Source: Fibrobacter sp. UWR2 (GTDB taxonomy: Bacteria > Fibrobacterota > Fibrobacteria > Fibrobacterales > Fibrobacteraceae). From it: a DNA stretch of 64,000 nucleotides. Made by a program: the position numbers and the translations under genes. Below are positions 9,701 through 39,883 of this stretch, one piece after another (the stretch's first letter is position 1; every line of letters starts with the position of its first letter). Below the pieces are notes generated by a model, which saw nothing but the letters and a program-made list of their open reading frames with translations, searched no databases and was not told where the DNA came from. The stretch spans positions 1 through 64,000 of the forward strand of contig NZ_MWQE01000009.1 in the NCBI RefSeq assembly GCF_002210285.1, written 5' to 3'.

Positions 9701-10009
9701 TACGGGGATAATCCACAGGTGGTGTGAACCCATGGTAAATATGGCGATATAGTTTTCGCCATACTTGCGGAGCCTGTGGTCAATCTTTTTGCAAAGGGAA
9801 TTCGTCGGAATCTGCTCGACATCGGCACGGTAAATCTTGAAACTGCTCTTTTGGGCGATTTCTTCGAAATCAAAGGAAAGCTCATCTTCGCCTTCCACAA
9901 TATTCAGGGGAAGCGGCATGCGATTAGACGGATTGTCATAACCCATTTCCGAAAACAGGGCGGCAAAATCGTTGTCCTTGAGATAAGCAATAAATTCTTT
10001 CTTGTTCAT
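6767..10009 (-). CDS. large N6-adenine DNA methyltransferase (Eco57I-like)
   Basis: A 1080-residue class I methyltransferase. SAM-binding motif I DPTCGSGAF lies near residue 501, and catalytic motif IV NPPY near residue 735 is typical of adenine-N6 enzymes. The 500-residue N-terminal part has no clear PD-(D/E)xK site; the C-terminal 250 residues are likely target recognition. Size and layout match the methylases paired with SNF2 helicases in DISARM-like or type IIG/ISP-like systems. It starts 4 nt after the PLD-helicase stop, which argues for a shared complex. Likely role: marking host DNA, with the helicase partner acting on unmarked DNA (inference). Confidence 0.85.
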   Translation of the reverse strand: MNKKEFIAYLKDNDFAALFSEMGYDNPSNRMPLPLNIVEGEDELSFDFEEIAQKSSFKIYRADVEQIPTNSLCKKIDHRLRKYGENYIAIFTMGSHHLWIIPVKTVEKRTLVSIEYEDAGKAEFLAQKMDNLSFGVDEEVTITDVTSRVQKEFAVNSEKITKDFYTGFRKQHDSFAKFISGIDVEGDRQWYVSVMLNRLMFCYFIQKKGFLDFDPHYLRHKLEWCKEHKGEDKYFTFYKGFLKALFHGGLNAPSKKRLAEFEKTYGKIPYLNGGMFDEHQIERDYKDIDIKDEAFEALFDFFDKWNWHLDTRISASGKDINPDVLGYIFEQYINDRAQMGAYYTKEDITEYIGKNCIVPYVMNKVQESLDEKEKAFIWDSLAQSGDTYIYDAVKKGVDLPLPDYIEKGIDTTKPNLLERRARWNEKADDELALPTEIWRETVERRERCMSLRKKISSHEINDINDFVTYNLDIRKFAEDLIEKTPSENFIAQTFDTLQNVTVLDPTCGSGAFLFAAMNIMEPLYERCIDRMEEFNEKDGSFKKELDEIKDKYRSNIQYFIYKSIILRNLYGVDIMHEATEIAKLRLFLKMVAVVEVDKRADNLGLDPLPDIDFNVRCGNTLVGFANERELERSFEGDWIEAGKKPEIDAEMADVAKIYDEFRQIQLDGGDLATFKESKKTLQTSLKKLNKTLDKKLYATNGMGKPFDEWKHDAQPFHWLSEFYQIIHGNGGFDVIIGNPPYVVYTKKNSISKVAVSDIYSLKEYETISCNNLYAFVLERSNKMVRDNGFMGMIIPISSVSSPQFNPLVDTLKKNMKFWVSSYSNRPGKLFDVEQRLTIFTGYKNNNCFTSYFSSSYKHWYTEERVNLFTTLYFAENTLDAFDIGLSKIGSKCEEDIKLKLSKRKDDKIGFLNLKTNKHYVYFHNAPTYFIRAMSFQPNKGMKESSHYKTIACGSKEISECVANVLNSSLYYWYYKMYSNCRDFSEREWKEFPCPLKIKELIDLNKKLTDSYQKNKLIKNRFYGQSQVFYEEYYPSKSKPIIDEIDKVLAKHYGFTEEELDFIINYDIKYRMGDELSQDEE

Positions 10010-10013
10010 GGTG

Positions 10014-13000
10014 TTACCGTGACTTGTTCTTTAGTCCCATAGAGCAAATAATTTGCGGTTCCTTGATGGCTGCATTTTCTTCGCCCCTGATAACGAGCCT
10101 GTCCTCATTCCGGAAATCAACGACCGTCGCGATGATTTCTTCGGGGCTAGCATTCCTGCGCAGCATCTGGCCAAGAATGTACTTGGCTTCTTCGTACATG
10201 GGATAGTTGTAGATATCGTCAACGGAGAGCTTCAAATCATCCGTGACAAAGAACGTTCCTTCATGATCCTTGCAGTAAGTATCGAGTAAGGTAAACAGGC
10301 GATTCTTGGTGCTGAATCGCGGTCCAAGAATACCTCCCTGCGGAATCTTGACCGATTGCATTTCCTTGATGGAACGCTTGACGAGTTCATGATGGTTGTC
10401 AAGCGCGGGATTCACTGCAGGAGTGTCGTAATCACAGGCCAACGCATCCAAAATGGTCTTTTGCGACTGCGTAACGATATTCTTCTTTATGTCCATCCAC
10501 ATGAGCATATCGCTTCCGCTCGGAGTCTTTGCGTAAGTGATAACACCCTGCTTCGATTCGTCTTCGGAGTTTTCCTTGGTCGAATAGATGACATTGCTCA
10601 AATTCGGGATAATGTTTTTCAATCCCGGATATTCTTCCGTTGCAGATTTCCAAATCTGGTAAGCATAACTTGCCAAATCGACTTCGCCATCTTCCTCTTC
10701 GTCAAGGACACCCTTCTTTTCGGTATAAAGGTCCTTGATGTTTGTCTCGTCGCCCTCGAAGAAAACTTCATCGGAACCAACCACATCGGCGTTTTCCTTG
10801 ATTCGATTAGAAAGGCGCTCCTTAAGCCTGATGAGCTTTTCCACACCTTCCGACGGGAAGAAACTGCAACAGTAAATCACTTCGGATTTCTGACCGATAC
10901 GGTCCACTCGACCCGCACGCTGAATCAAGCGGATAATTGCCCACGGCAAATCAAAGTTAATAATGATATGGGCATCTTGAAGGTTCTGGCCTTCACTCAG
11001 CACATCCGTTGCAACAAGGACTCGATATTGCTGATCTATAGGCAATGGGTTTTCAACCTTGTTACTGATTGGCGAGAACTTGCCCACTTCTGCTGTGGGG
11101 TCTTCGGAATCACCTGTAACGCAACCAACGTTCTCTATACCACGATTTTGCAGTTGCTTTGCGATGTATGCAGCCGTGTCACTGAACTGGGTGAATATAA
11201 TTGCTTTTTCGCCCTTGAATTCGCCTGTCAGCAGCTTATGCAATTCGTTGAGTTTTTCATCTAATTCCGGTTCCCAACCACCGCAGTATTCCAGCATGTT
11301 CATCAATGTTGTACAGTCGGCCTTTAAATCCCTCTTCAAGGTTGGCGTAAAGTAGCCGGAATCAATCCAGGAAACACTACTGGACTTGTCGGCAACAATG
11401 CGTTCGTAAATCTGCTGAGCAGCCTTCTTGTATTTTTCTTCAGTTACAGTTCCCGCAAAATTTAGACTATCTCCAAAAATGGAACCCGATTCATCAAACA
11501 AATCGTTGGTATGGTTTTCCACATCCTCGTCATCAAGGAAATTATCCGCCAAGGCATTCTCTGCTCCAATAGGGAACGGGAGCTTTTTCTCAATAGCATA
11601 GAGATAAACTGCATTTCGGAGAATGTGCCTATGGATAGAAATCAGGAACACAAGGCCGGAACTGTCCATTCTCTTGAAGAAGTTAGTCCGACAGAAGCCC
11701 ATCATTCTGACGCCAGCCTTGCTCAAGTTGGCAAGAATTTGCTGCTCAGTTCCGTTCGCATTCTTTTGTTTCGTCGGCGAGATATATTTGCTTAGGCCAT
11801 AACGAGGGAGTTTCAGTTGCCCCATCATATCCATCATCTCGTCAGAATAAAGACGACTGAACTGGTCGTTATCTACTGTCTTGAACTTGATTGCTCTCGG
11901 AATGCGTTCCGGGAAATAGGACTTCGTTCCATCCGGAAATTCCAGATACTTGCGGCCGTAATCATCAGTCTTTGCGTAATTATCCTTGATGAACGTGCGG
12001 GTGCGACGCACAAGGAACAAACGCATGAGTTCTTGCCAGTCTTCAGGTTCGTAACTCTTTTCAAAGGCGCCAACACCGCGAATGAATGTTTCTGGATGCT
12101 TGACAGAAAATTCCCTATCGCCCTGCAATGTGCGGATATAAGCCTCGGGCTTAATGCCCAAATCATATTCTTCCGGCAAGAACAACCTTAACTGGTTACT
12201 TAAATCCTTATATTCTTTGTTGTACGGCGTTGCAGTAAGAAGCAAGACTTTGCTGTTCTGGTACTGAATAAAGTCCTTTAGATTCTTGTAGCGCGCACCA
12301 TCGCTATTACGCAAGTTATGGCTTTCATCTACAATGATTAAGCGATAATACTTCAGGTTTTTGTAATCAAGATGTTTGGCATTAGAATATACATCGGCCT
12401 TTAAATCGTAATCCTTGATGTACCCCTTCCACATCGGGATAAGGTTTGCTGGGCAAATGATAGCGGTGCTGCAGGAATTACGCATCTCATAGACTTTGGC
12501 GATGGCACATGCAGTAATCGTCTTTCCAAGACCCACGACGTCGCCAATCATGGCTCCGCCATATTTGTCCAAATGCTTTGCTGCAAGTTTGACCGCCGTT
12601 GCCTGGAAATCGAACAAGGTATGCTTGAACTCCGGCGGAATCACATATTCCTTGATGCCGTCACGAGCTTCCTGGCTAAGGTGGTAAGCTGTTTTCAAAT
12701 AGATATAGTAAGGCGGAATATCTTCTTCACTAGCCCAGCTTTCATCGATAATCTTTATAAGCTCTTCGGTGATATCTACACAGAAGTTGTCTTCCCAGCG
12801 TTTATCAAACCAATCAGCAAATTTCTTTGCATCGTCGCGATCTGCAAATTCGGCATCTAGTTCACCATTTGCATTCAAGCCGGCATAGGTCAAGTTACTA
12901 GAACCCATCATCGCCATAATGGGATTGAACGAATCGTCAGGACGGTGAGCCAGATACAATTTCGCATGCAGGGGATACCTTGCAAACAGCTTTACGCAGA

Positions 13001-26209: not shown

Positions 26210-29200
26210 CTACCCTTCTTGATGATTATACTCCTCATACAGGCGCTCCCATGTAGGGGAAATTACTTCTCTAAACGAGTCCTTTTCACAGCGAGGTAGA
26301 AAATCGCCATGAGAATTGGAATAATGCTTGAAATTTCCGCATAACCTGCAGTATTTTTCGAAGTGCTCCTTTATAACGGATTCCGTCAATTCTGCAAGCG
26401 ATTTCACGCCCTCTCCATCACCTAAGACTCTCGAAATTCCTCCACAAACGGAACAACCATAATATCCGTTCTTATTCAATCCTATTCCACAATACGACGC
26501 GACCCAACATGCCTTCTGGTAATCCTCGTCTTTGAAATTAGGATCGTCTATAGGGGCATCGGCAAACGGGGTGAAATATCCGATTTCATTGTCATCTTTT
26601 GAAGATTCATAATCTATACGAACATTCTTAAAGGACTTAATCTCTTCACAGATATTTCGAGACTGTACTGTATAACGGTTTGATACGACTTGGATGACAA
26701 CATCGTTATTGAACGCATCGGCGTATTCCGTCTGCAAAATTCCTAGAATATCCTTGAGTTGGGGGTGCAGCGTCGGCTCTCCACCAAGAATGTTTATCAA
26801 TTTCCATTTGATATTGAGTCGTATACTTTCTTCGACAAATCTCTTGATATCCTGAAGACCCATACGTTCCCTTGATGGAGCCTTCCCGCAAGACCTGTTG
26901 CATCCCTTGCATTTCAAGTTGCAATCAAAGGTGATGTCTATTTCAATTTTGTCCATCTGCGGGAAAAATGTCTTACGCTTCTTGTATACGTTTTGAGGCG
27001 AAAGCTTATCCTTTCTAAGTATTTCCTTGATGCAGCGTTCCTTTATATCTCTATTCGCATCCCTATTCTCGTAATCCCTTTCGTAATAGTAGTTTATGAA
27101 GTCCATCTGATATGGGGATTCGCTCATCTCTACGATGGGTACCATAATCGCATAGTCGTCACATTTCTCAAACCATTTTCGCTGCGAAAACTTAGTTTCG
27201 CCATTGTTATACATAAAGTACGATAAAGGAATTGAATCAAAGAGGTATTTCCTGAACGTCTTCAAATGCTGCCATACATTGCCCCCATACTTTCGCGGAT
27301 CCATAAAGTCTACGGGATAACGGTAATGAGGCTGGATTCTGTAAGTCTGGTGGACTCGACCACAGGTTGTATCCACGCCCCACATGGCATATTTCTTGTA
27401 AACATCATATAGGGCGTCTTTCCCAATCAAGGCATCATCGGCATCTACCATGACGATTATAGAATCAGGATTACTGCAGTAGTTGTGCAGTGCGAGGTAC
27501 TCGCATTGCAGTTTCTCTAGCCTAGTACGTCCCTTTATGAAGGTTATTCTGTCTGAATAAGGCTTAATCAAGTAGTCGATAAAATACTGAATCCCATTGT
27601 CGGAACAGTCATCATAAAGAATAATGCTAAAATCCTGAAAACGCTGGCTCATTAACGAGCACCAAAAACGAAGGAACCTCTCGATAGAAACATTCCTAAG
27701 ACAAGAGAGAACAACCATTTTCTCATTGCGTTTGGGGAAACTCCAATCAAAGAAGGATCCCTCGCAATCAAAGTGATTTATCTGTTTGTCCAGAATATAA
27801 CCCTGCTCAATCCTGTCCAGTATATTCATCCAGCTATAGGGCTTTGTTTTCCTGTAGTTTTGGGGATGAATGTAGAAGCTTCTCTTGTCCCCACCACGAA
27901 TGGAACAATATCCCGTTTGCTTTTGATACTGCTCCATGGACCTATACCAGGTTAGCCTCAATTTGCCGTTTTCATCTGTACTATTAGGGTAAGGGCGTAA
28001 GCCGAACATTCGCTTCTTATCAAATAAACCCATTCTTACTTCTGGCACAAAGCCACCCTCTTCAAAACCAAAATACGGATTGCTTTGGGAAACCGGTATG
28101 TTGAACCCGACTGAAATGACTTTTTCGTTTGATTCCAGTTCGTTTAACATATCATTCATGAACGAATGACCATAATCGGATCGACCTATCATTACATCAC
28201 TATCCATTTGCAGGATGTAATCGCCTTCGCAGTTCTCGAAAGCATACAGCTGTGACGCAATCGGAACACCTTTTATGGAATGAGTCTCCTTTGTCGCTAT
28301 TCCGAACCACCGTTGGTTTATCGCCTCGGCCTGATTAGCATCAAAGAGAACTATCCTGTCGATAACGCCTTCATTCCTTAGCTTTTCTGTAATTGCAATG
28401 ACATCGTTCAGGTTTCCTTCTGCAGTATATTGACGTACAAAATCACATTCGCGGCAATCAATAGAAACGACCACCTCATGGAAGTAGTTTGGACAGGATA
28501 ACTGGCGTACGATATGGCGAATATTGGATTCAATCGTGAACACATCCTGGGCACACGTCTTGATTAGCAGGGAAACCTTTTTGCGAAGAGGGGTGATTTT
28601 TCTAAAGCCAAGAGCAATTCTTTGGGGAACAAAGGTGTTGTTGCTACTTAATTTCGGTTCGTCAACCTGAATATCCGATAAGTACAGATGTTCCCGGATT
28701 TTTGAAAAGAACAGATAATCAAGATTGCAAATTTCAGCGCAGCTGTATATCTCGTAAATTAATCCTGATTGCTGGTTAATCTTGAGAGAATGTATTACCG
28801 GGCCAGACTCCTCGTAAATGATGTTGGAGAAAATCTTGTTGACGAATTCCCTAAAACCATCTAATTCCGGCAAATCGAAGTTGTTAATCGCACTCCGCTG
28901 CAATTTCTTTAATCGGGGATTATCCTGCTCATGAATGAAGATAAACATGCGCGCACAGGCATTTAAGAAAAAGTCGTCATTGTAATACTTGCACCCATCA
29001 AGATCTATTAGCTTTATGGTTCCATTTACTCGAATGAAATTTTCCCGCTTGCAATCCTGAATAATCACCTTCTTCTGCCAGCATTCCGTCAAGAACTGGA
29101 TTGCGTCTTTTTCTGAGAAATACCCAACAGGTTCTGAGGCCTCATAGGGATACTTTTCAATAAACAGACCTTCAAACTCTAAGACCTCATCCAAATGGTA

Positions 29201-29416
29201 AAAGGACTTGTATTCTTTTTTGTCAAAGAAGAAGGTCAAATGACGGTAGGTATACCACTTGTCACCGCCCTCAAAGAACGGAAGGATTACCTTGTATACA
29301 TAGTTCGCATCATGAAAGACGACTCCTTCATAGCCTTGGCCTAAATATTCCAAATCGTCTAGGCCCATTTTTTTCAAAATTTCTAGTGCACGCTGCTTTC
29401 TTTCTTCATTTTGCAT
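26210..29416 (-). CDS. kinase-like / GT2 / GT2 / radical SAM fusion protein
   Basis: A 1068-residue fusion. Residues 17-160 look kinase-like: glycine loop GQGYEGVVF, catalytic-loop-like IIQDCKRENF, and LIDLDG. Residues 278-470 form a GT2 glycosyltransferase-like domain with YILQMDSDV. Residues about 565-700 form a second one with IILYDDCSDNG and VMVDADDA. From about 820 there is a radical SAM domain with CNLKCKGC (CX3CX2C) and NILGGEPTL, then extra cysteines CSVCGG and CRLC for an auxiliary cluster. The ATG at 29416 lies inside the upstream GT gene (34-nt overlap). Role unknown; probably makes a modified glycan or glycopeptide. Confidence 0.75.
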   Translation of the reverse strand: MQNEERKQRALEILKKMGLDDLEYLGQGYEGVVFHDANYVYKVILPFFEGGDKWYTYRHLTFFFDKKEYKSFYHLDEVLEFEGLFIEKYPYEASEPVGYFSEKDAIQFLTECWQKKVIIQDCKRENFIRVNGTIKLIDLDGCKYYNDDFFLNACARMFIFIHEQDNPRLKKLQRSAINNFDLPELDGFREFVNKIFSNIIYEESGPVIHSLKINQQSGLIYEIYSCAEICNLDYLFFSKIREHLYLSDIQVDEPKLSSNNTFVPQRIALGFRKITPLRKKVSLLIKTCAQDVFTIESNIRHIVRQLSCPNYFHEVVVSIDCRECDFVRQYTAEGNLNDVIAITEKLRNEGVIDRIVLFDANQAEAINQRWFGIATKETHSIKGVPIASQLYAFENCEGDYILQMDSDVMIGRSDYGHSFMNDMLNELESNEKVISVGFNIPVSQSNPYFGFEEGGFVPEVRMGLFDKKRMFGLRPYPNSTDENGKLRLTWYRSMEQYQKQTGYCSIRGGDKRSFYIHPQNYRKTKPYSWMNILDRIEQGYILDKQINHFDCEGSFFDWSFPKRNEKMVVLSCLRNVSIERFLRFWCSLMSQRFQDFSIILYDDCSDNGIQYFIDYLIKPYSDRITFIKGRTRLEKLQCEYLALHNYCSNPDSIIVMVDADDALIGKDALYDVYKKYAMWGVDTTCGRVHQTYRIQPHYRYPVDFMDPRKYGGNVWQHLKTFRKYLFDSIPLSYFMYNNGETKFSQRKWFEKCDDYAIMVPIVEMSESPYQMDFINYYYERDYENRDANRDIKERCIKEILRKDKLSPQNVYKKRKTFFPQMDKIEIDITFDCNLKCKGCNRSCGKAPSRERMGLQDIKRFVEESIRLNIKWKLINILGGEPTLHPQLKDILGILQTEYADAFNNDVVIQVVSNRYTVQSRNICEEIKSFKNVRIDYESSKDDNEIGYFTPFADAPIDDPNFKDEDYQKACWVASYCGIGLNKNGYYGCSVCGGISRVLGDGEGVKSLAELTESVIKEHFEKYCRLCGNFKHYSNSHGDFLPRCEKDSFREVISPTWERLYEEYNHQEG

Positions 29417-31011
29417 AAGCCTAAGCCTCGTTGATAAAGTTCCTTTCGTGTTTCCAGATAGAGAGCGAGTCTCTTGTTGTCTGCGGTTATCTTACCATTC
29501 AAATTGTAAATCGTCAGTAGCACATCCTCTGCAATAGCGATTTTATAATCGTTATCGCCAAGTAGCAAATCAACTAGAAGAAAATGGTCCTCGGCACTAT
29601 TCTTTGCAGGATAGTCGCGCAGGCATCTTTTCGACATGAATACATTACACGACGGTAGTTCTGCTTCGGCAATACCATTCGACATATCCCTCAGCCGGTT
29701 TATTAAATAATCACTGTCAAGGAGATCCTTCGTAGCGCGATTCACCCGACTTATCACCTCTTCATTCAAACGCAAGTAGTTACCGGCTAGTACGACATCA
29801 GCACCGCTCTGTTCTTGAACCTGTTCGATTCTTGACAGAACGAGATTACCTGAATACACGTCATCGCAATCAAGCCGTCCAATCAGTTCTACATTACCGA
29901 AGTATTTCCTAATATAGGCATGAATATCATTTCGTGTCTTGTACGTAGCATTGTTCTTTACACGGATTACCATCACGTTTGTCAAAGCCAAAAGGTCCGA
30001 GACTTCTTCTTCCCAGCCATCGTTAGAATCATCGTCCGCAATCAATACCCATAGATGGCTAGAAAGATTTTCTTGATTGAGAACGGACCGAAGGCTCCGT
30101 CTGATGGTTTTGCGCCCATTGTGAAGCGCAATTCCTATCACAATCTTCTTTTCATCAGCCTTCCCATGAACCAAATTGAACAACTTATATATGTTGCTGG
30201 AGTCATTATAGTCAAAAAGCTTCTCGGCGCGATGAACCGCCTTTTCGAGCAATTCAGGAGTATAGAGGTGAATGTACTTTTCAAAGAATCGTGTAATGCC
30301 GAGACATTTCTTGCCCTTGTCGTAGGTAATGCTACCTTTCCACGCAAAATGGTTCACAAGGACCATCGGTGTAATTGCAAACTGGATCTTTGGAGATAAT
30401 TGCAAAAGCCGAATAAGCATATCCCGGTCGGTACAAGAGGGTAGCATTTCATCAAAGCCATTAACCCTCTTTAATGTACCCAAACTAAAGAACATATTGC
30501 TTCCTTGTATTCCGATATTGCCGCAAAGGAAGTTTTCGATTGTTATGTCGGACTGTTTAAAAATATGCGGTGAAGGGCAATCACTACGTTTTAGATATGC
30601 GCAGCAGGCTTCGGGAAGGCGGCCATTCTTATTGAAAAAGGCGTCAATGGTATTACATTGACGTTCCAGATATGTCGATTCCCAGGAATCATCGTCATCA
30701 AGGAAAGCGATATAGTCGCAATCAATGAATTGACTTGCATACCATTCTATTCCCGAATTCCAAGCCCCAGTACCAGAACAGCCATGTGTATGGCAATTTT
30801 TCAAGTAATGTAGATTCGGATTGTGGTAGGAATTGAGCTTTGCCACTAATTCATCGCTAAAATGAGTATTATCGTTGTCATCAACGACGAGGACGCAGTC
30901 TGGTTTGACGGATTGCGACAAAACGGATGCCAGGGAACGACCGAACAACAGATCGTTCCTGCACATTGATGTGCTTATAAGGACTCCTATTCTATATTTC
31001 TTGGCAATCAA
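29383..31011 (-). CDS. tandem GT2 glycosyltransferase
   Basis: A 542-residue protein with two family 2 glycosyltransferase domains: the first with VLVVDDNDNTHF and AFLDDDDSWE, the second (from about residue 285) with VLIADDDSNDGWEE and GRLDCDDVY. These DxD-type motifs bind nucleotide sugars and metal. The start is a TTG at 31011 with AGGA upstream; no ATG fits. It overlaps both neighbours, so the three genes form one translation-coupled unit. No membrane helices are visible, so it is probably cytoplasmic. Confidence 0.8.
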   Translation of the reverse strand: MIAKKYRIGVLISTSMCRNDLLFGRSLASVLSQSVKPDCVLVVDDNDNTHFSDELVAKLNSYHNPNLHYLKNCHTHGCSGTGAWNSGIEWYASQFIDCDYIAFLDDDDSWESTYLERQCNTIDAFFNKNGRLPEACCAYLKRSDCPSPHIFKQSDITIENFLCGNIGIQGSNMFFSLGTLKRVNGFDEMLPSCTDRDMLIRLLQLSPKIQFAITPMVLVNHFAWKGSITYDKGKKCLGITRFFEKYIHLYTPELLEKAVHRAEKLFDYNDSSNIYKLFNLVHGKADEKKIVIGIALHNGRKTIRRSLRSVLNQENLSSHLWVLIADDDSNDGWEEEVSDLLALTNVMVIRVKNNATYKTRNDIHAYIRKYFGNVELIGRLDCDDVYSGNLVLSRIEQVQEQSGADVVLAGNYLRLNEEVISRVNRATKDLLDSDYLINRLRDMSNGIAEAELPSCNVFMSKRCLRDYPAKNSAEDHFLLVDLLLGDNDYKIAIAEDVLLTIYNLNGKITADNKRLALYLETRKELYQRGLGLCKMKKESSVH

Positions 31012-31621
31012 TTCTGTTCCTGGTTAGAAGGTAGAAGAACGGAGTATCGCATAGGGCAAGCACGACTTTTGCAATAAAGACGCCCAGAACCATGCTCCAG
31101 ATGTTGGGAACAACGCCATAAAACGCGATAAAGGAAAAGATAATCGTATCTAGAAATTGGCTAATAATTGTACTGACATTGTTTCGAATAAATTTGAATC
31201 TTGGGGAATAGTTCCTTATTTTGTGGAAAATGTACACGTCGGTACTTTGGCTTATTATATATGCGACAATGCTTGCAATAAAGATTCTTGTTGACGTGGA
31301 AAAAACTTGGCTGAAAGCACTGGAGTCATAAGGTGATGGCAAAAGGAGTGCCAGGCGGGTTAATACACAGGCCACAATTAGGCAAATGAACCCGAACTGG
31401 ACGATCCTGTTCGCGACCTTCCTTCCATATAGTTCTCCTATAACGTCGGTCATCAAGTATGTTAAGGCATAGCCGACCGTTGCTGAGGGCATTTCTAGGC
31501 CGCATACGCAGATGACTTTCGACGCAAGAAAGTTCGACGAAAGCAAGCCTGCCGTAAATAGGCATGAGCAGGCGATGAGGAAATAGATTTGGCGATTTTG
31601 GGATGGATTGAGTTGAAGCAT
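30992..31621 (-). CDS. yhhQ: YhhQ/VUT-family queuosine precursor transporter
   Basis: A 209-residue polytopic membrane protein with the YhhQ (COG1738) pattern: SNFLASKVI, YALTYLMTDVIGELYGRKVA, IASIVAYIISQSTDVYIFHKI, and FIRNNVSTIISQFLDTIIFSFIAF (read in two pieces). This family imports queuosine precursors. Its 3' end overlaps the glycosyltransferase start by 20 nt, an unexpected partnership. No preQ1-type aptamer was seen upstream. Start ATG at 31621 has a weak ribosome-binding site. Confidence 0.85.
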   Translation of the reverse strand: MLQLNPSQNRQIYFLIACSCLFTAGLLSSNFLASKVICVCGLEMPSATVGYALTYLMTDVIGELYGRKVANRIVQFGFICLIVACVLTRLALLLPSPYDSSAFSQVFSTSTRIFIASIVAYIISQSTDVYIFHKIRNYSPRFKFIRNNVSTIISQFLDTIIFSFIAFYGVVPNIWSMVLGVFIAKVVLALCDTPFFYLLTRNRIDCQEI

Positions 31622-31684
31622 ATGTCAATAGGGTAAAAAGGTTATTTTTTTGTAATATATATTTACATTCAGAAAAGTGGAAGT

Positions 31685-31927
31685 TTAGGCGATGATTACG
31701 CCCGTCTGGATGAGGAACGCACGAATATAGTGGTTATATTCGCGTTCGAGCACCTTGAAGGTGTTTCCGTTGCTCGGTGTTATCGCGACAACCAGCGCCT
31801 TACGGCTAGTTGGGGCCTTGTGCTTCAGGATGGAATGCTTGCCACCCCGATAGTAGTTCCAGCGTCCGCTCCTGATGAGGGCGTTGCAGAAATCGTTAAT
31901 TCGCTTGTCGGCTGAGATGTAGATCAT
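31685..31927 (-). CDS. HicA-like small protein (possible toxin)
   Basis: An 80-residue basic protein starting at the ATG with GAGGTA upstream. The middle RGGKHSILKHK resembles the HicA G-x-H core that carries the catalytic His, and the spacing of strand and helices fits the dsRBD-like HicA fold. No hicB lies next to it; an orphan hicB is at 16645. The frame is open upstream to 32053 through GTG, but the extra residues are not supported. The family call is tentative. Confidence 0.45.
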   Translation of the reverse strand: MIYISADKRINDFCNALIRSGRWNYYRGGKHSILKHKAPTSRKALVVAITPSNGNTFKVLEREYNHYIRAFLIQTGVIIA

Positions 31928-32244
31928 TGGGTACCTCGCTTGGGTAAAATTTTGCGTTGAAGATGTGTTTGGAAACATCCCGTCCGGTTGGAACGGAATT
32001 CTAGGCGTTTGGAGAGGCAGAAATGCAGCTACAGACAAAACGCCAAAAACCACGTCGGTGCTACACCTACGTGACTATCCCCTGGTGAGGTCTAAGACTG
32101 GTTTTTCATCATTTTGAACTCCTTGCTGGCTGTTACGAAAAAAAAGCAGAGAGTTACAACTAACAGCAGTTCAATGATGTATTCGTAATATATAAAAACT
32201 TTTTCGGAAAAGCAATAGGGGAAAGAAAAAAAATCCGACTCGCG
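31928..32244. other. gene-poor stretch with a micro-ORF signal
   Basis: This 317-nt stretch lies between the 1069-residue gene and the HicA-like gene. On the minus strand a strong AAGGAG (near 32120) precedes an ATG-ATG that stops after six codons (MMKNQS). It may be a leader peptide or a remnant start. Nothing else is recognised. Confidence 0.3.
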
Positions 32245-35200
32245 CTATTTATTGGTCAAATCGACTTCTGCCATCTGTATCAGCACCTTTATCAAGTACA
32301 GTTTACTTTCATAGCCATAAAGGTCAAAAAAGTTGACATCGTCATCTATAACATTCTCTACATTAACTGCATTAGGCTCCGTCCCTATTTTTACACGACA
32401 GATATTGGCAACGCCGAACATCGTATTTAAAAAGTTCCGCAGTTCCTCTTCAAAAGGATAATTCTCTATGCACTTGCCTATTTTTTTCAGAATCGGCCTG
32501 TCAATGAGCAATTCGCCCTGATCATTGATTATCTCCTTATTTCCCTTTCTTAACTCATTGGTTTTATTTATCACTTCTTCTAGTATTTGGGGATTATTAA
32601 TTTCTTTCGAAATATTTTCACTAAATTTGTCAAGTACCTTTGACTGCACTATATGGTCTTTCAATCTCGAAAAATACTTGTCACACAACCTAACCCATGA
32701 AAGTGAGTCTGTATCTATGTTACAATCGTATTTGATATTCAGTTTCCTAGATGACGAATAATAAATATCACTTAAAGAATCCGCAAAGGCAAAATATTCT
32801 TCGAGGGAAAAATCGTCCTTCTTCAATACCTCAAGGGCTTCCGCTATTTTATTCTGCAATTCCTCGTCATTACTTTCAATATCTTTCAGTAATTTTGAAA
32901 TCGTTGTTAATACGGCCGATAGTTCGGTAAGGAATTCCTTTGAAAGGGAAGGCGTATTCTTGGCATAGAATGATTTCCACTCATCAGGGACATCATTAAG
33001 AGGAACCTGGTACACTGTATAAGGTGGTGGACCTTCCCTTTTTACCTTTGAATTGACATCCATTTCATAAAATAACTTAACAATCTCGTCCAAAGGAGTT
33101 TCAGTATCCATGTTGTACATTTGTTCTTTCCAATACATTCTTTCTGCCAAGGATATCGACCTATCAGAGTTGGAAGTTTTTATCATCAGCATCACTCTAC
33201 CAAGTATGTAACACTGGTTTGAGAAGGAAACTTTATTTCGCACTATATTAATAAAGTTAATACGATTTAAGCAATCAATAAAGGATGACAGTTTTTCAAG
33301 ATTTAGTCTTATTTCTTGCTCATTTGTATTTTTTGATTTCAAGTCGAACAAGAGTAGCAGCAAATCAATGCAATAGTCCTTCTTCAGCAAGCCTTCTGTA
33401 AACTTGAATTTCGAGTAATGAGTAGCCATGTTTCGTTCTTCATTCAAGTATACACTGCTTGTAAAATTTGAATAAAGTTGCCTATAATAGTTGTCATAGG
33501 AGAATATTATTTTACCGCATTCCAATTGCAATAGCTTCGTATCGGTCTCTGGGAATACTTTACATGTAACTGTTCTAGAAAAGAACTGGTTTTCAAATGT
33601 TGGACTTTTTTGCGCAAGGCTAATTGAGAAACCGTTGTCAATATTTTCCATCAACTCCGTTTCTTTTAATAACTTTTTATCCCTCCTCTTCGCTAGGGAT
33701 TCCAGTTCCTTGAAATCCTTGGAATAATAGCCAAATGTCTTATCTCGCTGCGCATCTATAAAGTTGATTATTTGGATCAAGGTTGTATACCGAGGTTCTC
33801 TTGCATAGGAATTAATGCTATGTATTAAGAATAGAGCCGTCTCGGTCGGATGGAAAGCGGTTTTCTGAAATTTTTCAAAATCAATGGTTACAGAACTCTT
33901 TGGAAGTGATTTAGACAAGATTTCATTGAATATGACAGTCTGTTTTTTTGTCGATTTCCACGAACCATCATAGAGTGCTTCATACAATAAATCCTTAATT
34001 CTAAGGGTATAAAAAGAATCATTTGGAGGAAATGTCGTCTTTTGATCAATGTCCTTGACAAAATCAAATAACGCGAAGAAGAACATCTTCTGCAACCGTA
34101 GTAAAGCCTCCCTCTCTATATACTTCTTTTGTATAACCTCCTGAAAATCAGTATTCTTCCATGTAGCCACAACAACAGACGCACTAGGAGAAATATTAAT
34201 CTGCTTTGTTGCAGCCTTTGGAGTGTTTGCTTCTTCTAGAAACAGCTTGCAATACTTTTTATATTCAAAGAAATGAGACGTCCAATAAAGTAAGAACGAA
34301 ATACACGGCCATTTTTGAAATAAGGTTTTGTCAAAAGAAAAAACGTTTCTGAAAACTTTGCCCAATGCGACAGGATTGACGTTTTTCTCTATTCCATATG
34401 CCGCCTTCACTAGTGAAATAAAGTTCATCAACTTATTTCGTTTGCCTTTATTATAATCTGTATCAACAATTCTACTTCTGTCCTTACTTAAATATATAGG
34501 ATAATTGATAGCGGCGCATATAACCGTTATATTTATTATTTCATTCACGCTTTCAATGGTTGAATAAAAAGCACTTCTTTTTTCTTCATATTTCAAATGC
34601 CGGAAAGCTCCATGCTTTTCACTATTGAGTTGAGCAAATTCCGCCTGTGTCCTGTTTGACTTTCTCATGAAATCAAAAAAATACGCAATTATATAGTCAT
34701 TTATATTCTTGAATAGATATTCCTCGTTACAAACATAAGCACAGTATGTTTCTAGTTCAGATACATTTAGATGATTTTTGCGACGGTCAGATCTATGATT
34801 TTGCTTGTTATATAGCCATAATTCAAAAGGGTAATATTCTTCGGTGCATTCTCCAGTCAATACAAAATTCTTATACTCCTGTAGCCTAGCGTTATACCAG
34901 GGGTCATCAAAAGTCAATGGCGTGTGAATGACATCGAAATCTTCGTCAGAGTCTATTCCAAATTCGAAAAATGCAAAATTAATAAAGTTTCTTTTTTCAT
35001 ATTCAGAAATTGTCAAAATGCACTGGGCAATTATTTTCTTTACCTCGTTTATTGCGTTTCTTATTTTGTCGTTCAGCAATGAATTTGAGTGATGATGTTT
35101 GGTAATAAAAATAAGCAAACTATATAGGCAGAAGAACAAATCTGAAGCAAAGTCATAGTATTCTCGGAAGAGAAGTCTGTTGTCATCTTCGCTAACGTTA

Positions 35201-35454
35201 TCATCCCATTGCGGGAATGCGACTTTCTTTATCTTTTTAAGAGATTGCAATGTTGCTATGTAGAAAAGATTAAAGAAATTAACTGAATACCCAAATCCAT
35301 CTGCAATCAAGATCCTATTACGGATTTTTAAATCGCCACAATTCTTGTGAATCTCGATAATATGACGGTAGCACTCCAGAAGGTCACTATGCGCCTTGCC
35401 GATGATCTCTAAAGATAGATCGATAGCGTCTTTGCCTTGATTTTGCCCATCCAT
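32245..35454 (-). CDS. very large uncharacterised protein next to the RiPP-like locus
   Basis: A 1069-residue AT-rich gene with no recognisable motif, signal peptide or clear membrane helices. It is predicted to be largely helical, rich in Lys, Asn, Phe and Tyr, with an acidic start (MDGQNQGKDAIDLSLEII) and coiled stretches near residues 860-960. No ATPase, protease or nuclease signature is visible. It lies 146 nt downstream of the Cys-repeat gene, in the same direction but after a strong terminator. Base use matches the radical SAM gene, so a common transfer is plausible. It could be a maturation partner or an unrelated cargo gene. Confidence 0.7.
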   Translation of the reverse strand: MDGQNQGKDAIDLSLEIIGKAHSDLLECYRHIIEIHKNCGDLKIRNRILIADGFGYSVNFFNLFYIATLQSLKKIKKVAFPQWDDNVSEDDNRLLFREYYDFASDLFFCLYSLLIFITKHHHSNSLLNDKIRNAINEVKKIIAQCILTISEYEKRNFINFAFFEFGIDSDEDFDVIHTPLTFDDPWYNARLQEYKNFVLTGECTEEYYPFELWLYNKQNHRSDRRKNHLNVSELETYCAYVCNEEYLFKNINDYIIAYFFDFMRKSNRTQAEFAQLNSEKHGAFRHLKYEEKRSAFYSTIESVNEIINITVICAAINYPIYLSKDRSRIVDTDYNKGKRNKLMNFISLVKAAYGIEKNVNPVALGKVFRNVFSFDKTLFQKWPCISFLLYWTSHFFEYKKYCKLFLEEANTPKAATKQINISPSASVVVATWKNTDFQEVIQKKYIEREALLRLQKMFFFALFDFVKDIDQKTTFPPNDSFYTLRIKDLLYEALYDGSWKSTKKQTVIFNEILSKSLPKSSVTIDFEKFQKTAFHPTETALFLIHSINSYAREPRYTTLIQIINFIDAQRDKTFGYYSKDFKELESLAKRRDKKLLKETELMENIDNGFSISLAQKSPTFENQFFSRTVTCKVFPETDTKLLQLECGKIIFSYDNYYRQLYSNFTSSVYLNEERNMATHYSKFKFTEGLLKKDYCIDLLLLLFDLKSKNTNEQEIRLNLEKLSSFIDCLNRINFINIVRNKVSFSNQCYILGRVMLMIKTSNSDRSISLAERMYWKEQMYNMDTETPLDEIVKLFYEMDVNSKVKREGPPPYTVYQVPLNDVPDEWKSFYAKNTPSLSKEFLTELSAVLTTISKLLKDIESNDEELQNKIAEALEVLKKDDFSLEEYFAFADSLSDIYYSSSRKLNIKYDCNIDTDSLSWVRLCDKYFSRLKDHIVQSKVLDKFSENISKEINNPQILEEVINKTNELRKGNKEIINDQGELLIDRPILKKIGKCIENYPFEEELRNFLNTMFGVANICRVKIGTEPNAVNVENVIDDDVNFFDLYGYESKLYLIKVLIQMAEVDLTNK

Positions 35455-35534
35455 AATTCATTTCCCTTACATTTACTGTTTAACCATAGACTTACACTTG
35501 TAAATCTATCCTTTTTTGCCTAGGAATGGAGAGC

Positions 35535-35569
35535 AAAAAAACGCATTTCTCCATTCAACGGAGAAATGC
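35535..35569 (-). terminator. strong terminator after the Cys-repeat gene
   Basis: On the minus strand GCATTTCTCC and GGAGAAATGC pair perfectly around a 7-nt loop and are followed by G and seven T. It separates the precursor from the 1069-residue gene and would make the precursor the last gene of its main transcript. Confidence 0.85.
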
Positions 35570-35600
35570 ATCGTTCTTTATTGCACCTATCTAGCTACAA

Positions 35601-36347
35601 CTAAAGAATGAACGGGCAATAGGGAACGTTCACCAGGCAGGGACCAAGCTGGCCATCGGCGGCACATGGCCCAACATCAAGCGCACAGGCGTTTCCGAGG
35701 CAGCCCTTTGCTGCACACGCTCCAGTAGCGGCTGCGCATGCATCTCCAACGCAGCCTGCGCCAGCACACACATCTGCTTTTGCTCCACAGGCATCCCCCG
35801 TACAACCTGTTCCCGTCCCGGCCCCTGCATGGCCGCCACAGCCCTCGACAGCGCACGCTTCTGCAGCACAGGCATTCGCGTCTGCAGCGCATGCCGCGCC
35901 TCCACATGCATCGCCACCACAAGCGCTTGCTTTCGCTCCACATGCAGCACCGCCACACGCATCGGCAGCGCAAGCACCTGCATATCCACCGCAGACATAG
36001 CCACCACACACGTTAGTCGGGCAAGCCGTCGCATCGGCTGCGCAACCCGCGCCAGCGCACGATCCGCGAAGAAGTGTCCGGGACTTCTTTTGGAAAGGTA
36101 TCACGACCACCTTGTTACCGTCCAAATCGATCTGGACATTTTTCAGAACAGAAATCAAATCAACAATCTTATTGATTTCCTTCAGCTGTTCCACCAAGAC
36201 GACAGGCGAACCCTTGCAGGTAGCCGTTGTTCCATCCGGAGTTACCGAAAAGCAGATGATTTCGTTTTTGCGGGTACGTGCGCGAAGGGTCAAATCTAGC
36301 CCCTGCGTGATGTAGCCGTTTCTGTCTACTTGATTGATTTCCTTCAT
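35601..36347 (-). CDS. Cys/Ala/Gly-repeat peptide, probable radical SAM substrate
   Basis: A 248-residue protein. Residues 1-95 are an ordinary, leader-like domain with two Cys (32, 44). Residues 97-248 carry 25 Cys spaced 5-5-7 over and over, a 17-residue repeat such as CGGAACGAKASA, almost otherwise Ala, Gly, Asp. One unit lacks a Cys (170 to 182) and the pattern loosens at the end. AAGGAG precedes the ATG, 16 nt after the radical SAM gene. This fits a ribosomally made, post-translationally modified peptide of the ranthipeptide/sactipeptide kind, or a metal-binding repeat protein. The core is much GC-richer than its surroundings. Confidence 0.75.
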   Translation of the reverse strand: MKEINQVDRNGYITQGLDLTLRARTRKNEIICFSVTPDGTTATCKGSPVVLVEQLKEINKIVDLISVLKNVQIDLDGNKVVVIPFQKKSRTLLRGSCAGAGCAADATACPTNVCGGYVCGGYAGACAADACGGAACGAKASACGGDACGGAACAADANACAAEACAVEGCGGHAGAGTGTGCTGDACGAKADVCAGAGCVGDACAAATGACAAKGCLGNACALDVGPCAADGQLGPCLVNVPYCPFIL

Positions 36348-36363
36348 ATCATGACTCCTTTTA

Positions 36364-37701
36364 TTAATGGTGAAATTTTTTTAGATAGAGGCGCAGTCTA
36401 TTTTCCAAATCGAACTTGATCGATGGGCATGGCGTAAGGGCCGAGTTTCCCGAATAGTTTTCCTTGAACAAGAAACGGTACGTACACATTCCCATGCAAT
36501 TTGGCATAATCCTGCAATCCAGGCATTCCTGTTCTACAAAAGGAGACCAAGACGTCCAATCCTTCCCTGCGTCCCTTAGATTGAATTTCTCGTCAGCTAT
36601 GTTCCCAATTTTGTACTTGTCTACAGAAACAGTTTCCCAACATTTGTGAATATCGCCGTTCGGGCAGATTACAAGGCCGTTCTCCTTGGCCGCCCCACAG
36701 ACTCCCATTAAATGAGGCGGCAGCGTAATGTTGCACAAGCCATTCTTATAGGCATACTCAATGAGCTTGGTTTCGATTTCTGCATAATGAAGCGCCTCCA
36801 AGGTATAAGCCGAAACATGCTTACACATTGTTGTCGACGCATGAATCGGGGCAAAGTACATCGAAATATTTTTAACGCCCTTCAGTTCACGGGCGACTTC
36901 ATCAATCAGCCTATAGCATTGCGCTTCGTTGCGGGAATCCACATTCACGCGGAATGTCGTCGCAATAGGTGATTCTGATTGATATTTCCTTACGTTCTCC
37001 ATTATCACATCAAAAGACCCACGATTATCCGACTTGAAGAAGCGGACCTTATCGTGAACATCCTTAGGCCCATCAAGCGTTATCTGAATCCAGGAAATTC
37101 GGCATTCCCTAAAGGCGTCCATATTTTCGGACTTGAGCAGGGATCCATTGGTGATTATGGAGGCCTTGTACGCGATACCCTTCTTTGTACACAGGTCAAT
37201 CATTCGCCTAGATAAGCCCCTTATAACGTCCATTCCAAGCGTAGGCTCGCCACCAAACCAGGTCACATTCAGATTTTGAAGTTCCGTACAGTTAGATTCC
37301 AGCCAATGCATAACGCCATCCTGCGTTTTTGCATTCATAATGGAACTTTTCTTGTCGGCACCTTCGAAGCAGTAATTGCAATTAAAGTTGCACGAAAGAG
37401 TCGGAAGAATTGTCATTGTCAATGACTGCTTCCCTGTTTTCACCGACAAAAACTTCTCTTTTATTCGTTCGCGCTCATCGGCATCGACAGGAATTATGAA
37501 ATTATTGATTAGGCACCTATCCAAGAAATCAAGCTTTGAAGCCTCCAAGTCAGCAGGGACGCCCTCACTAACAATTTTCTCCAGAAAGTCATACTCGTCG
37601 TGCGATAAAACCGCAAGGGAGTTGCCCAAAGTATTATACACTGCAATGTCATCGCCTTCGGCGATAAGGATATTGTATCTTGAAAAGTTGTATTTGGTCA
37701 T
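36364..37701 (-). CDS. radical SAM/SPASM peptide maturase
   Basis: A 445-residue enzyme. The N-terminal 90 residues resemble the peptide-recognition region of peptide maturases (YNTLGNSLAVL). The radical SAM core has CNFNCNYC (C104, C108, C111) and WFGGEPTL. The SPASM-type C-terminus has CGAAKENGLVICPNGDIHKC and then CLDCRIMPNCMGMC with a final Cys in LTPCPS, enough for two auxiliary [4Fe-4S] clusters. Such enzymes form thioether or C-C links in Cys-rich peptides. The Cys-repeat gene follows directly and is the obvious substrate. It recalls the FibroRumin-type maturases known from Fibrobacter, but I could not test this. Confidence 0.85.
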   Translation of the reverse strand: MTKYNFSRYNILIAEGDDIAVYNTLGNSLAVLSHDEYDFLEKIVSEGVPADLEASKLDFLDRCLINNFIIPVDADERERIKEKFLSVKTGKQSLTMTILPTLSCNFNCNYCFEGADKKSSIMNAKTQDGVMHWLESNCTELQNLNVTWFGGEPTLGMDVIRGLSRRMIDLCTKKGIAYKASIITNGSLLKSENMDAFRECRISWIQITLDGPKDVHDKVRFFKSDNRGSFDVIMENVRKYQSESPIATTFRVNVDSRNEAQCYRLIDEVARELKGVKNISMYFAPIHASTTMCKHVSAYTLEALHYAEIETKLIEYAYKNGLCNITLPPHLMGVCGAAKENGLVICPNGDIHKCWETVSVDKYKIGNIADEKFNLRDAGKDWTSWSPFVEQECLDCRIMPNCMGMCTYRFLFKENYSGNSALTPCPSIKFDLENRLRLYLKKFHH

Positions 37702-37973
37702 AATAAGTTTAGATGAAAAATTTCGTACAAACTTAATAATATTTTTGTAACGTATTATGACACGGCAAGTAAGCCCATTTTTGCCAAAAGTTTATCATAA
37801 CCAAACAATGTTCAACGCCAATTGAATATGGGCAAGCAATTGTAATTTGTATGTATTACTTTAGATAAGTTAATTTTCGCCCGTATTTTTTTGTAATTTT
37901 TTCAACACATTGGTTTTTAGGCGAATTTGAAGGTCAGAATGCCGTATTTTTTGTATTCGGATATTCCATCGGC

Positions 37974-38777
37974 CTACTTAAAAACATACCCCACGCCGAA
38001 TTTTGCGGCATAGTGGCGGTAGTCGGGGTTCACGAGGGTCATCGCAACGCCCCCGCTCACTTCCCAGTGGGTGTTGAATCGATACCCGGCCATAATGTAA
38101 TGCGTGTCTATCGACGGTGTGGCAAGGCCCTCATCGCCAGCCTCGACGGCCGGGGAATACGAGCTCAGGCTATAGCTCAAGAAAAAGTCCTCGATCATGA
38201 TAGTCGCATACAAGCCCATGAATAGCGAGGCGTAAAAATCGGTATCCGTCCCGCCGATAGATTTCCAGTCATCACTGTCGGAGCACGGGTAAACATCGCA
38301 CTCTTCGCCGTCCACGGTTATCGTGGTATACTGGTGGAATGTGCCCATAAATATGCCGGCTTCGAAAAATCTCGTGTTGAAACCAAGTTTCAGGTGGTGG
38401 TAAATTCCGTCATCGTAACCGACGCCCAGGCCCCAAATAAAAAAACTCGTTTTCTGGAACCATTCGAACGATGCGTTCAGATCACTGCCGCCCAATTCGT
38501 AGATTCCTTTCGCGGTGAATTCCCGAGTGGGCTGCATCAGCGAATCGGCGCTGTAGTTCGAATACGACCCGCTCACCACCATGGTTTCCTTCGGGCTGAA
38601 AAGGTACGACCCGGAAAAACGGAATGTCGAGGAATGGGGTTCGAGGTACCCGCGTACGCCTTCGACTTCGGGAGCCTCGGCTGCATCGACGTGGAAACTG
38701 GTAATACGCGTACGCGTACACCCCGTGGCAAGTAGGCACAGGGCAAGACATACGGATATGTACACCATTCGTCTCAT
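37974..38777 (-). CDS. lipoprotein with outer-membrane barrel-like body
   Basis: A 267-residue protein with a lipobox (LLATGC) after a short hydrophobic signal, and alternating beta-strands with aromatic ends closing in FGVGYVFK. AAGGAG precedes the ATG. It is likely an outer-membrane-associated lipoprotein of unknown role. The 270 nt between it and the radical SAM gene hold no recognisable gene. Confidence 0.7.
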   Translation of the reverse strand: MRRMVYISVCLALCLLATGCTRTRITSFHVDAAEAPEVEGVRGYLEPHSSTFRFSGSYLFSPKETMVVSGSYSNYSADSLMQPTREFTAKGIYELGGSDLNASFEWFQKTSFFIWGLGVGYDDGIYHHLKLGFNTRFFEAGIFMGTFHQYTTITVDGEECDVYPCSDSDDWKSIGGTDTDFYASLFMGLYATIMIEDFFLSYSLSSYSPAVEAGDEGLATPSIDTHYIMAGYRFNTHWEVSGGVAMTLVNPDYRHYAAKFGVGYVFK

Positions 38778-38866
38778 GGGAGCTCCTTCTAATACTATAT
38801 CTAATATTATATAATTTTTTTATGACATTGGATAGCCCAAGCGCATTTTCTATATTTTAGTCCACT

Positions 38867-39883
38867 ATGACCGCGGACGAACTCTTCAACAGATTGAACA
38901 AGATCCAGCCGGGTGCGGTGCTCTGCCACTACACCCGTGAAAAAGTCGAACAGATGCTCCCGCTGATCAACGAGATCAACGAGCGCAAGAAAGACCAGGA
39001 TACTGTCATCCTCGCGCACAGCTACTGCGCACCGGAAATCGTGCTCGGTGTCGCCGACTACACGGGCGACAGCTACAAGCTGAGCGAAGACGCCACGAAG
39101 GTCCCACAGAAGACAATCCTCTTCTCCGCAGTCCGCTTCATGGGCGAGACGGCCAAGATCCTGAGCCCCGAAAAAGACGTGCTCATCCCGGGCAAGCTCA
39201 CGGGCTGCAGCCTCGCCGATTCCATTACCGGCAAGGACGTGCAGGCGCTGCGCGAAAAGTACCCGGAACACGCCTTCATCTGCTACATCAACACCACGGC
39301 CGACGTGAAGGCGGCCTGCGACGTGTGTGTCACGAGCGGCAACGTGATGAAGATCGTGGAAGCCTACCCCAACGACAAGATTTGCTTTGTGCCCGACAAG
39401 CTCATGGGCCAAAACATCAAGAACGAGATGGAAAGCCGCGGCGTCAAGAAGGACATCGTACTCTACAACGGCAGCTGCTACGTGCACGAGACGTACGATG
39501 CCGAACTCATCCAGTTCTTCCGCAGCCAGAATCCGGGCCTCAAGGTGGTGAGCCACCCCGAATGCAACCCCTCTGCGGCGTTCTACAGCGACTTCGTGGG
39601 CAGTACCGGCCAGATGGTCAAGTACATCGATGGCCTGCCGCCCAAGAGCAAGGTCCTGCTCCTTACGGAATGCGGGCTCAATGCACGCATGCACTACGAG
39701 CACCCCGACATGGAATTCATCGGGAGCTGCAGCATGTGCAAGTACATGAAGTCTAACTCCCTCGAGAACATCCTCGAGACACTCCGCCACCCCGAACAGG
39801 CGAACCGCGTGGAACTCGACGAAGATACGCGCGTGAAGGCGAAGAAGTGCATCGACGCGATGTTCCACTACGCGAACCTCTAG
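38867..39883 (+). CDS. nadA: quinolinate synthase NadA
   Basis: A 338-residue quinolinate synthase, which condenses iminoaspartate and dihydroxyacetone phosphate to quinolinate for NAD synthesis using a [4Fe-4S] cluster. Seen motifs: VILAHSYCAPEI, VRFMGETAKIL, GCSLADSI, MESRG region, SHPECNP, and GSCSMCKYM. It ends 11 nt before mnmA, so the two are probably cotranscribed. GC and codon use are core-like. Confidence 0.95.
   Translation: MTADELFNRLNKIQPGAVLCHYTREKVEQMLPLINEINERKKDQDTVILAHSYCAPEIVLGVADYTGDSYKLSEDATKVPQKTILFSAVRFMGETAKILSPEKDVLIPGKLTGCSLADSITGKDVQALREKYPEHAFICYINTTADVKAACDVCVTSGNVMKIVEAYPNDKICFVPDKLMGQNIKNEMESRGVKKDIVLYNGSCYVHETYDAELIQFFRSQNPGLKVVSHPECNPSAAFYSDFVGSTGQMVKYIDGLPPKSKVLLLTECGLNARMHYEHPDMEFIGSCSMCKYMKSNSLENILETLRHPEQANRVELDEDTRVKAKKCIDAMFHYANL

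Follow-up and report, generated by a model that had tools for sequence, protein, structure and literature searches.

Radical SAM enzymes that form thioethers are known mostly from short peptides carrying few links. The known substrates of the SCIFF/ranthipeptide enzymes CteB and PapB are Cys-rich short peptides, and the enzymes themselves have an RRE-radical SAM-SPASM layout. CteB leaves one site of its Aux I cluster open, and a substrate Cys was bound there (PMC6231123). Freyrasin contains six Cys–Asp links, its acceptors all being Asp, and in streptosactin the Cys links are unnested and include the Cys31–Gly34 link to an alpha carbon, from residue i to i+3 (PMC8172795). A SPASM enzyme can also modify a repeated motif many times: TvgB acts on the many copies of a short repeat in TvgA, where it converts the Val of TVGG to cyclopropylglycine with no Cys involved (PMC9062424).

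Clo7bot maturases (TIGR04334) adjoin several Cys-rich peptides of 41–53 residues, many of them C-x3-C spaced, together with an ABC transporter. On the Methylomagnum ishizawai plasmid pRS11DPr1 (NZ_AP019784.1) RefSeq names a "Cys-every-fifth RiPP peptide CefA" (NF038108) and a "TIGR04463 family radical SAM/SPASM RiPP maturase" beside a RiPP C-methyltransferase; thus, the TIGR04463/CefA kind is already familiar to annotators. In the literature searched we found no published chemistry for TIGR04463, CefB or Clo7bot members, and no paper referring to TIGR04463, Clo7bot or "Cys-every-fifth" by name. The Cys array described here is not among the pathways featured in the text of PMC9062424.

In this work we analyzed a two-gene cassette of the rumen bacterium Fibrobacter sp. 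UWR2 lying in a window of 64,000 bp (positions 1–64,000 of contig NZ_MWQE01000009.1; all coordinates without a locus name refer to it). It is probably a RiPP-type cassette of the TIGR04463/CefA kind, in which the maturase would form thioethers from the Cys residues of the precursor tail, plausibly to the residue at +3, and so produce a stapled tail. The features of the cassette are as follows.

36364–37701, minus strand: radical SAM/SPASM peptide maturase, TIGR04463-like, 445 aa (NCBIfam, Pfam, AF2).
37480–37701, minus strand: N-terminal region of the maturase, residues ~1–74, predicted strands then helices, putatively RRE-like.
37369–37392, minus strand: CX3CX2C motif for the SAM-binding [4Fe-4S] cluster, C104/C108/C111, invariant in 11 homologues.
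36427–36699, minus strand: SPASM region CX13GX4C ... CX2CX5CX3C ... C, with C335, C354, C393, C396, C402, C406 and C425.
36355–36361, minus strand: Shine-Dalgarno sequence AAAGGAG of the precursor gene (from the sequence).
35601–36347, minus strand: precursor protein, 248 aa, 27 Cys (ORF, dN below dS).
36093–36323, minus strand: beta-rich N-terminal domain of the precursor, residues ~9–85 (predicted structure).
35616–36059, minus strand: cysteine array, residues 97–244, C-x-x-[D/N/K/E/Y/A] units, 25 Cys on a 5-5-7 lattice.
35805–35837, minus strand: Gly177, at a vacant Cys site within the Gly-rich gap of 12 residues (171–181).
35540–35572, minus strand: intrinsic terminator downstream of the precursor gene (hairpin stem, T run and folding z score).

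The precursor ORF starts 16 nt past the maturase stop, with AAAGGAG placed 7 nt ahead of its ATG. It is followed at 35572–35540 (minus strand) by a terminator with a 15-pair stem and a T run (fold z = -4.15). An Rfam search of 31000–39000 gave no match, and no protease or exporter was seen adjoining the cassette.

Several other genes of the minus strand lie on the downstream side of the cassette. It is followed by the gene for a 1069-aa protein of unknown family (32245–35454), a homologue of which (25% identical, orientation relative to the cassette reversed) is encoded at 7312–10164 (minus strand) of locus L009. A 122-aa ORF with a HicA-like match (31685–32053) adjoins a Vut_1 transporter gene. 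A 542-aa protein with two glycosyltransferase matches (29383–31011) adjoins a 1068-aa protein (26210–29416) in which a family 2 glycosyltransferase domain is joined to a radical SAM domain (residues ~828–938).

The best NCBIfam family for the maturase is TIGR04463 "rSAM_vs_C_rich" (462.8 bits, E 9.8e-139, profile positions 1–427 of 438). The score is short of the curated cut-off of 525, as it also is for the maturases of loci L010 and L015–L018, and the enzyme can be regarded as a close TIGR04463 relative by score but no member by cut-off. The adjacent Cys-rich target implied by the family name is present as the 25-Cys array. The second-best family is that of the Clo7bot maturases (TIGR04334; 272.5 bits, cut-off 600), followed by CefB (NF038107; 219.3 bits, cut-off 600). 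The initial annotation had proposed a comparison with ranthipeptide, SCIFF and FibroRumin maturases; their profiles all scored below the cut-offs (PapB NF047865, 118.5 bits against 340; TIGR03974, 102.4 against 425; TIGR04136, 70.2 against 400). The SPASM profile TIGR04085 gave 53.4 bits, above its cut-off of 27, and Pfam Radical_SAM also matches. The CX3CX2C motif plus the seven-Cys SPASM motif mark the enzyme as a radical SAM/SPASM peptide maturase, and all these Cys are invariant in 11 homologues.

The solved structure nearest to the AF2 model of the maturase (pLDDT 83.8) is CteB, a thioether-forming SCIFF maturase (Z 26.3, 395 residues aligned, rmsd 5.2). CteB is also the best PDB match by sequence, and 8VPO (TigE) is another close fold. 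Residues ~1–74 are modelled as strands followed by helices (pLDDT ~90), and the alignment begins at maturase residue 7 with CteB (5WHY/5WGG) and at residue 1 with 8VPO; the model thus suggests that this region is RRE-like. In some SPASM enzymes an eighth Cys completes an auxiliary cluster. It is not conserved in this maturase group, which would be compatible with an open Aux I site as in CteB. Since CteB is its closest solved relative, Cys thioether chemistry by the Fibrobacter enzyme is plausible.

In the precursor, 25 of the 27 Cys fall within residues 97–244, with gaps of 5, 7, 5, 5, 7, 5, 5, 7, 5, 5, 7, 5, 5, 12, 5, 7, 5, 5, 7, 5, 5, 7, 9 and 7 residues in order. All but two of the 24 gaps equal 5 or 7, a result matched by none of 200,000 shuffles in which 25 Cys were placed randomly (best random score 13). 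The commonest distances between Cys pairs are 17 and 34; therefore the array repeats every 17 residues, with Cys at lattice positions 0, 7 and 12. The gap of 12 equals 7+5, Gly177 occupying the expected Cys site, and because a 12-residue gap is also found at the aligned place of the Bacteroidales precursor L010, the vacant site is conserved. The final spacings (7, 9, 7) fall off the lattice. The main points made about this gene in the initial annotation, namely its start 16 nt after the maturase gene, the 25 Cys in repeated 5-5-7 units of 17 residues, the one missing Cys, the irregular last spacings and the strong terminator, are all confirmed.

When UWR2 is compared with Fibrobacter sp. RGIG5144, all 25 Cys codons of the array still encode Cys (21 identical, 4 synonymous), and 23 of the 128 other array codons carry nonsynonymous changes. 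The comparison gives dN 0.07 and dS 0.32, values that point to a coding ORF under purifying selection in which no Cys has been lost. The array might be a thiol-rich tail that binds metal or an Fe-S cluster, the maturase acting at another site or on few residues. As many as 25 free thiols would be available to a metal, the host lives anaerobically, and the tails of some relatives hold only 2–6 Cys. However, there are no metallothionein-like CxC or CxxC clusters in the array, Cys stand 5 or 7 apart with Asp or Asn at +3 in all arrays, and the loci have the Cys tail in common but not the N-terminal domain. We consider a metal-binding tail unlikely. The metal-binding solenoid that the initial annotation offered as an option is neither favoured nor disfavoured by these data.

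The part preceding the array had been described as a 95-residue leader-like domain. It is predicted to hold a small folded domain, beta-rich with strands from residue 10 and two helices, modelled by AlphaFold at pLDDT ~73–84 for residues 21–80 and lower at the edges. The domain is common to the Fibrobacter and Bacteroidales precursors; it gave no Pfam match, no PDB sequence match and no Foldseek match at E <= 0.001, and its best Z against PDB folds was 3.1 (VIA). Elsewhere its position is taken by crystallin, ricin-type and fascin domains (L013), by a B-lectin domain (L014) or by regions ending in double-glycine motifs (L012, L016). Across the family it is the Cys tail of the precursors, unlike the N-terminal domain, that is conserved.

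Related maturases were detected in Bacteroidales, Okeania, a beta-proteobacterium, Methanothrix, Saprospiraceae, Chitinophagales, Synergistaceae and Rhodobacteraceae, as well as on the Methylomagnum plasmid. Of 19 related loci, spread from archaea to cyanobacteria, 17 encode a Cys-tailed protein next to the maturase (the window, L009–L019, L054–L057 and L083). No such neighbour was seen in the 11.3 kb of L058, nor in L059, whose contig is 4.4 kb long. The double C-x-x-[DNK] motif is absent from the more distant radical SAM loci L008, L020, L060, L079–L081, L084 and L085. Relatives reach 41–45 Cys in proteins of 480–870 residues, some with lectin, crystallin or fascin domains, and in L054–L057 a Gly-Asp/Asn-Glu repeat protein ends in a tail with only two to four Cys. 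The CefA profile NF038108 recognizes L011 (54.4 bits) and L013 (91.1 bits), both of which also adjoin a RiPP C-methyltransferase; the Fibrobacter precursor scores 16.6 bits, below the cut-off of 30.

It should be mentioned that some of these loci have other features of interest. The archaeal precursors of Methanothrix are encoded at 2116–4728 of L013, where crystallin, ricin-type lectin and fascin matches stand ahead of the Cys array and the C-methyltransferase gene follows, and at 879–3332 of L019. In the Bacteroidota precursors L014 and L015 a B-lectin-like domain is combined with Cys at every tenth residue; L014 is weakly similar to putidacin lectin-like bacteriocins, and its cluster includes EryCIII-like glycosyltransferase and FAD-binding genes. 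The Rhodobacteraceae proteins adjoining maturases of the same family (L054 434–3502, L056 6526–8922, L057 6739–9306) are 800–1020 aa long and consist almost entirely of Gly-Asp-Glu and Gly-Asn-Glu triplets, with a short C-x-x-D tail at the end. L055 has a similar C-x-x-D tail and a C39 peptidase nearby. A type I restriction hsdR gene (L010 1764–4898) is located directly upstream of the Bacteroidales maturase.

Among 168 Fibrobacterota genomes, a maturase of this group was found in two and the array in the same two only; no 5-5-7 Cys array was found in the other 166. Together with the 17 paired loci this strongly supports the initially proposed pairing of maturase and array. A third, distant maturase match in Fibrobacterota (G074, 214.5 bits) is not accompanied by the motif. 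Pattern matches in Fibrobacterota loci L025, L026, L028, L030 and L031 were rejected as arrays, being out-of-frame simple-repeat sequence. In 393 Bacteroidales genomes we found, besides that of L010 itself, one weaker match without the motif. Viral contigs contained relatives of 26–29% identity only, three of them with long matches and without the motif. The UWR2 cassette (35480–37927) is 92% identical to that of RGIG5144. Beyond it, the two genomes differ on the side of the maturase, and the gene that follows downstream is a distant homologue in reversed orientation. Therefore, the cassette has a patchy distribution and is probably mobile. A search of the flanks in the genus Fibrobacter revealed no empty insertion site.

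Most relatives carry Cys on multiples of 5 (Rayleigh R(5) 0.75–1.00), while the arrays of the window, L009 and L010 follow 5-5-7 (R(17/3) 0.64–0.79). In two Rhodobacteraceae precursors the gaps are 17, 10+7 and 9+7. The maturase tree, in which deep nodes are weak, sets the 5-5-7 and Rhodobacteraceae groups apart (two changes are needed, and a single one suffices in 0% of bootstrap trees), so the 16/17-residue period arose at least twice or was repeatedly lost. This recurrence in two separate maturase clades (Fibrobacter/Bacteroidales and Rhodobacteraceae) is what one would expect if the array were linked by the maturase into a covalent solenoid, in which a repeat of 17 residues forms one coil, Cys stack in three ladders and the links run across the coil instead of from i to i+3. 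In addition, the vacant Cys site leaves the lattice in phase, and Ala/Gly with regularly placed Asp/Asn resembles solenoid repeats. On the other hand, in most relatives the Cys follow a lattice of 5 or 10 residues and no longer period is fixed, and AlphaFold models the unmodified array as disordered (pLDDT ~30), though from a 3-row alignment and with links that cannot be modelled. A covalent solenoid therefore seems unlikely to us.

Asp or Asn occupies +3 of 30–100% of Cys per array and only 0–5% of positions +1, +2 and +4 (14 arrays). The Methylomagnum array has 57% at +3 against 0, and the window array 44% of units, the others having Lys, Glu, Tyr, His or Ala. As +3 is the other conserved position, the enzyme could modify this residue itself, by epimerisation or a C-C bond, Cys being a hydrogen donor, a ligand or a disulfide partner. 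Related SPASM enzymes perform non-thioether chemistry (TvgB, PMC9062424), and TigE (8VPO) is also close in fold, but Cys is more constant than the +3 residue and the closest structure by sequence is that of a thioether-forming enzyme. Modification of +3 in place of Cys linkage is therefore very improbable.

In the preferred reading, that of thioethers formed from the tail Cys, the maturase would dock the precursor through its RRE-like N-terminal region, reductively cleave SAM and convert the Cys thiols of the tail into thioether links. The favoured acceptor would be the residue at +3 of each Cys (C-x-x-[D/N...]), an assignment that, taken alone, we make tentatively: since Asp/Asn occurs in just 44% of the window units, this residue may shape the fold instead of accepting sulfur. 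The variety at +3 (D, N, K, E, Y, H, A) makes the alpha carbon preferable to a side-chain carbon as acceptor. This would give a series of small 4-residue rings, unnested and placed one to each 5-residue step, with the 7-residue step closing the 17-residue repeat; a small folded domain would thus carry a stapled tail rich in Ala and Gly. Release of a peptide by a C39 route is unlikely because the cassette has neither a protease nor an exporter gene next to it and no Peptidase_C39 was found in the host genome; the protein is expected to stay whole or to leave by another route. Our guess is that it functions as a stapled, protease-resistant scaffold.

Comparison with the described systems shows that: (i) the Fibrobacter cassette shares with the CefA system of Methylomagnum the maturase family that scores best over the full length, a long protein with an N-terminal domain, a C-terminal Cys array and the C-x-x-[D/N] motif, but has a 17-residue 5-5-7 lattice instead of Cys at multiples of 5, a different N-terminal domain and no C-methyltransferase; (ii) it resembles Clo7bot in the Cys-rich substrate adjoining the maturase but not in peptide number, size, spacing or transporter; (iii) its maturase resembles CteB and PapB in layout and Cys-rich substrate, while its precursor, at 248 aa, is no short peptide; (iv) its +3 residue varies, unlike the acceptors of freyrasin; and (v) action on many copies of a short repeat is proposed as for TvgB, on a Cys-based array. 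The cassette is thus a variant of the known predicted TIGR04463/CefA kind, not a new class, and the substrate, initially called unusual, is so in part only: a Cys-array system was already named, while the combination of a 5-5-7 lattice and a particular N-terminal domain, seen in two Fibrobacter and one Bacteroidales, is new. The separately arisen 16/17-residue lattice of Rhodobacteraceae and the C-x-x-[Asp/Asn] motif in every array are new as well.

In this system a single maturase is paired with a protein whose 25 Cys are evenly spaced. Radical stapling on the scale of a protein, with one maturase installing some 25 thioethers per chain to yield a covalent ladder of repeats, the 17-residue coil of which would have evolved on two or more occasions, is an attractive but doubtful extension of these data. 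If the links form, the cassette would offer a genetically encoded route to stapled repeat proteins. From the C-x-x-[D/N] rule the acceptor can be predicted directly, for a family that has so far been named in databases, with no chemistry found for it in the literature searched.
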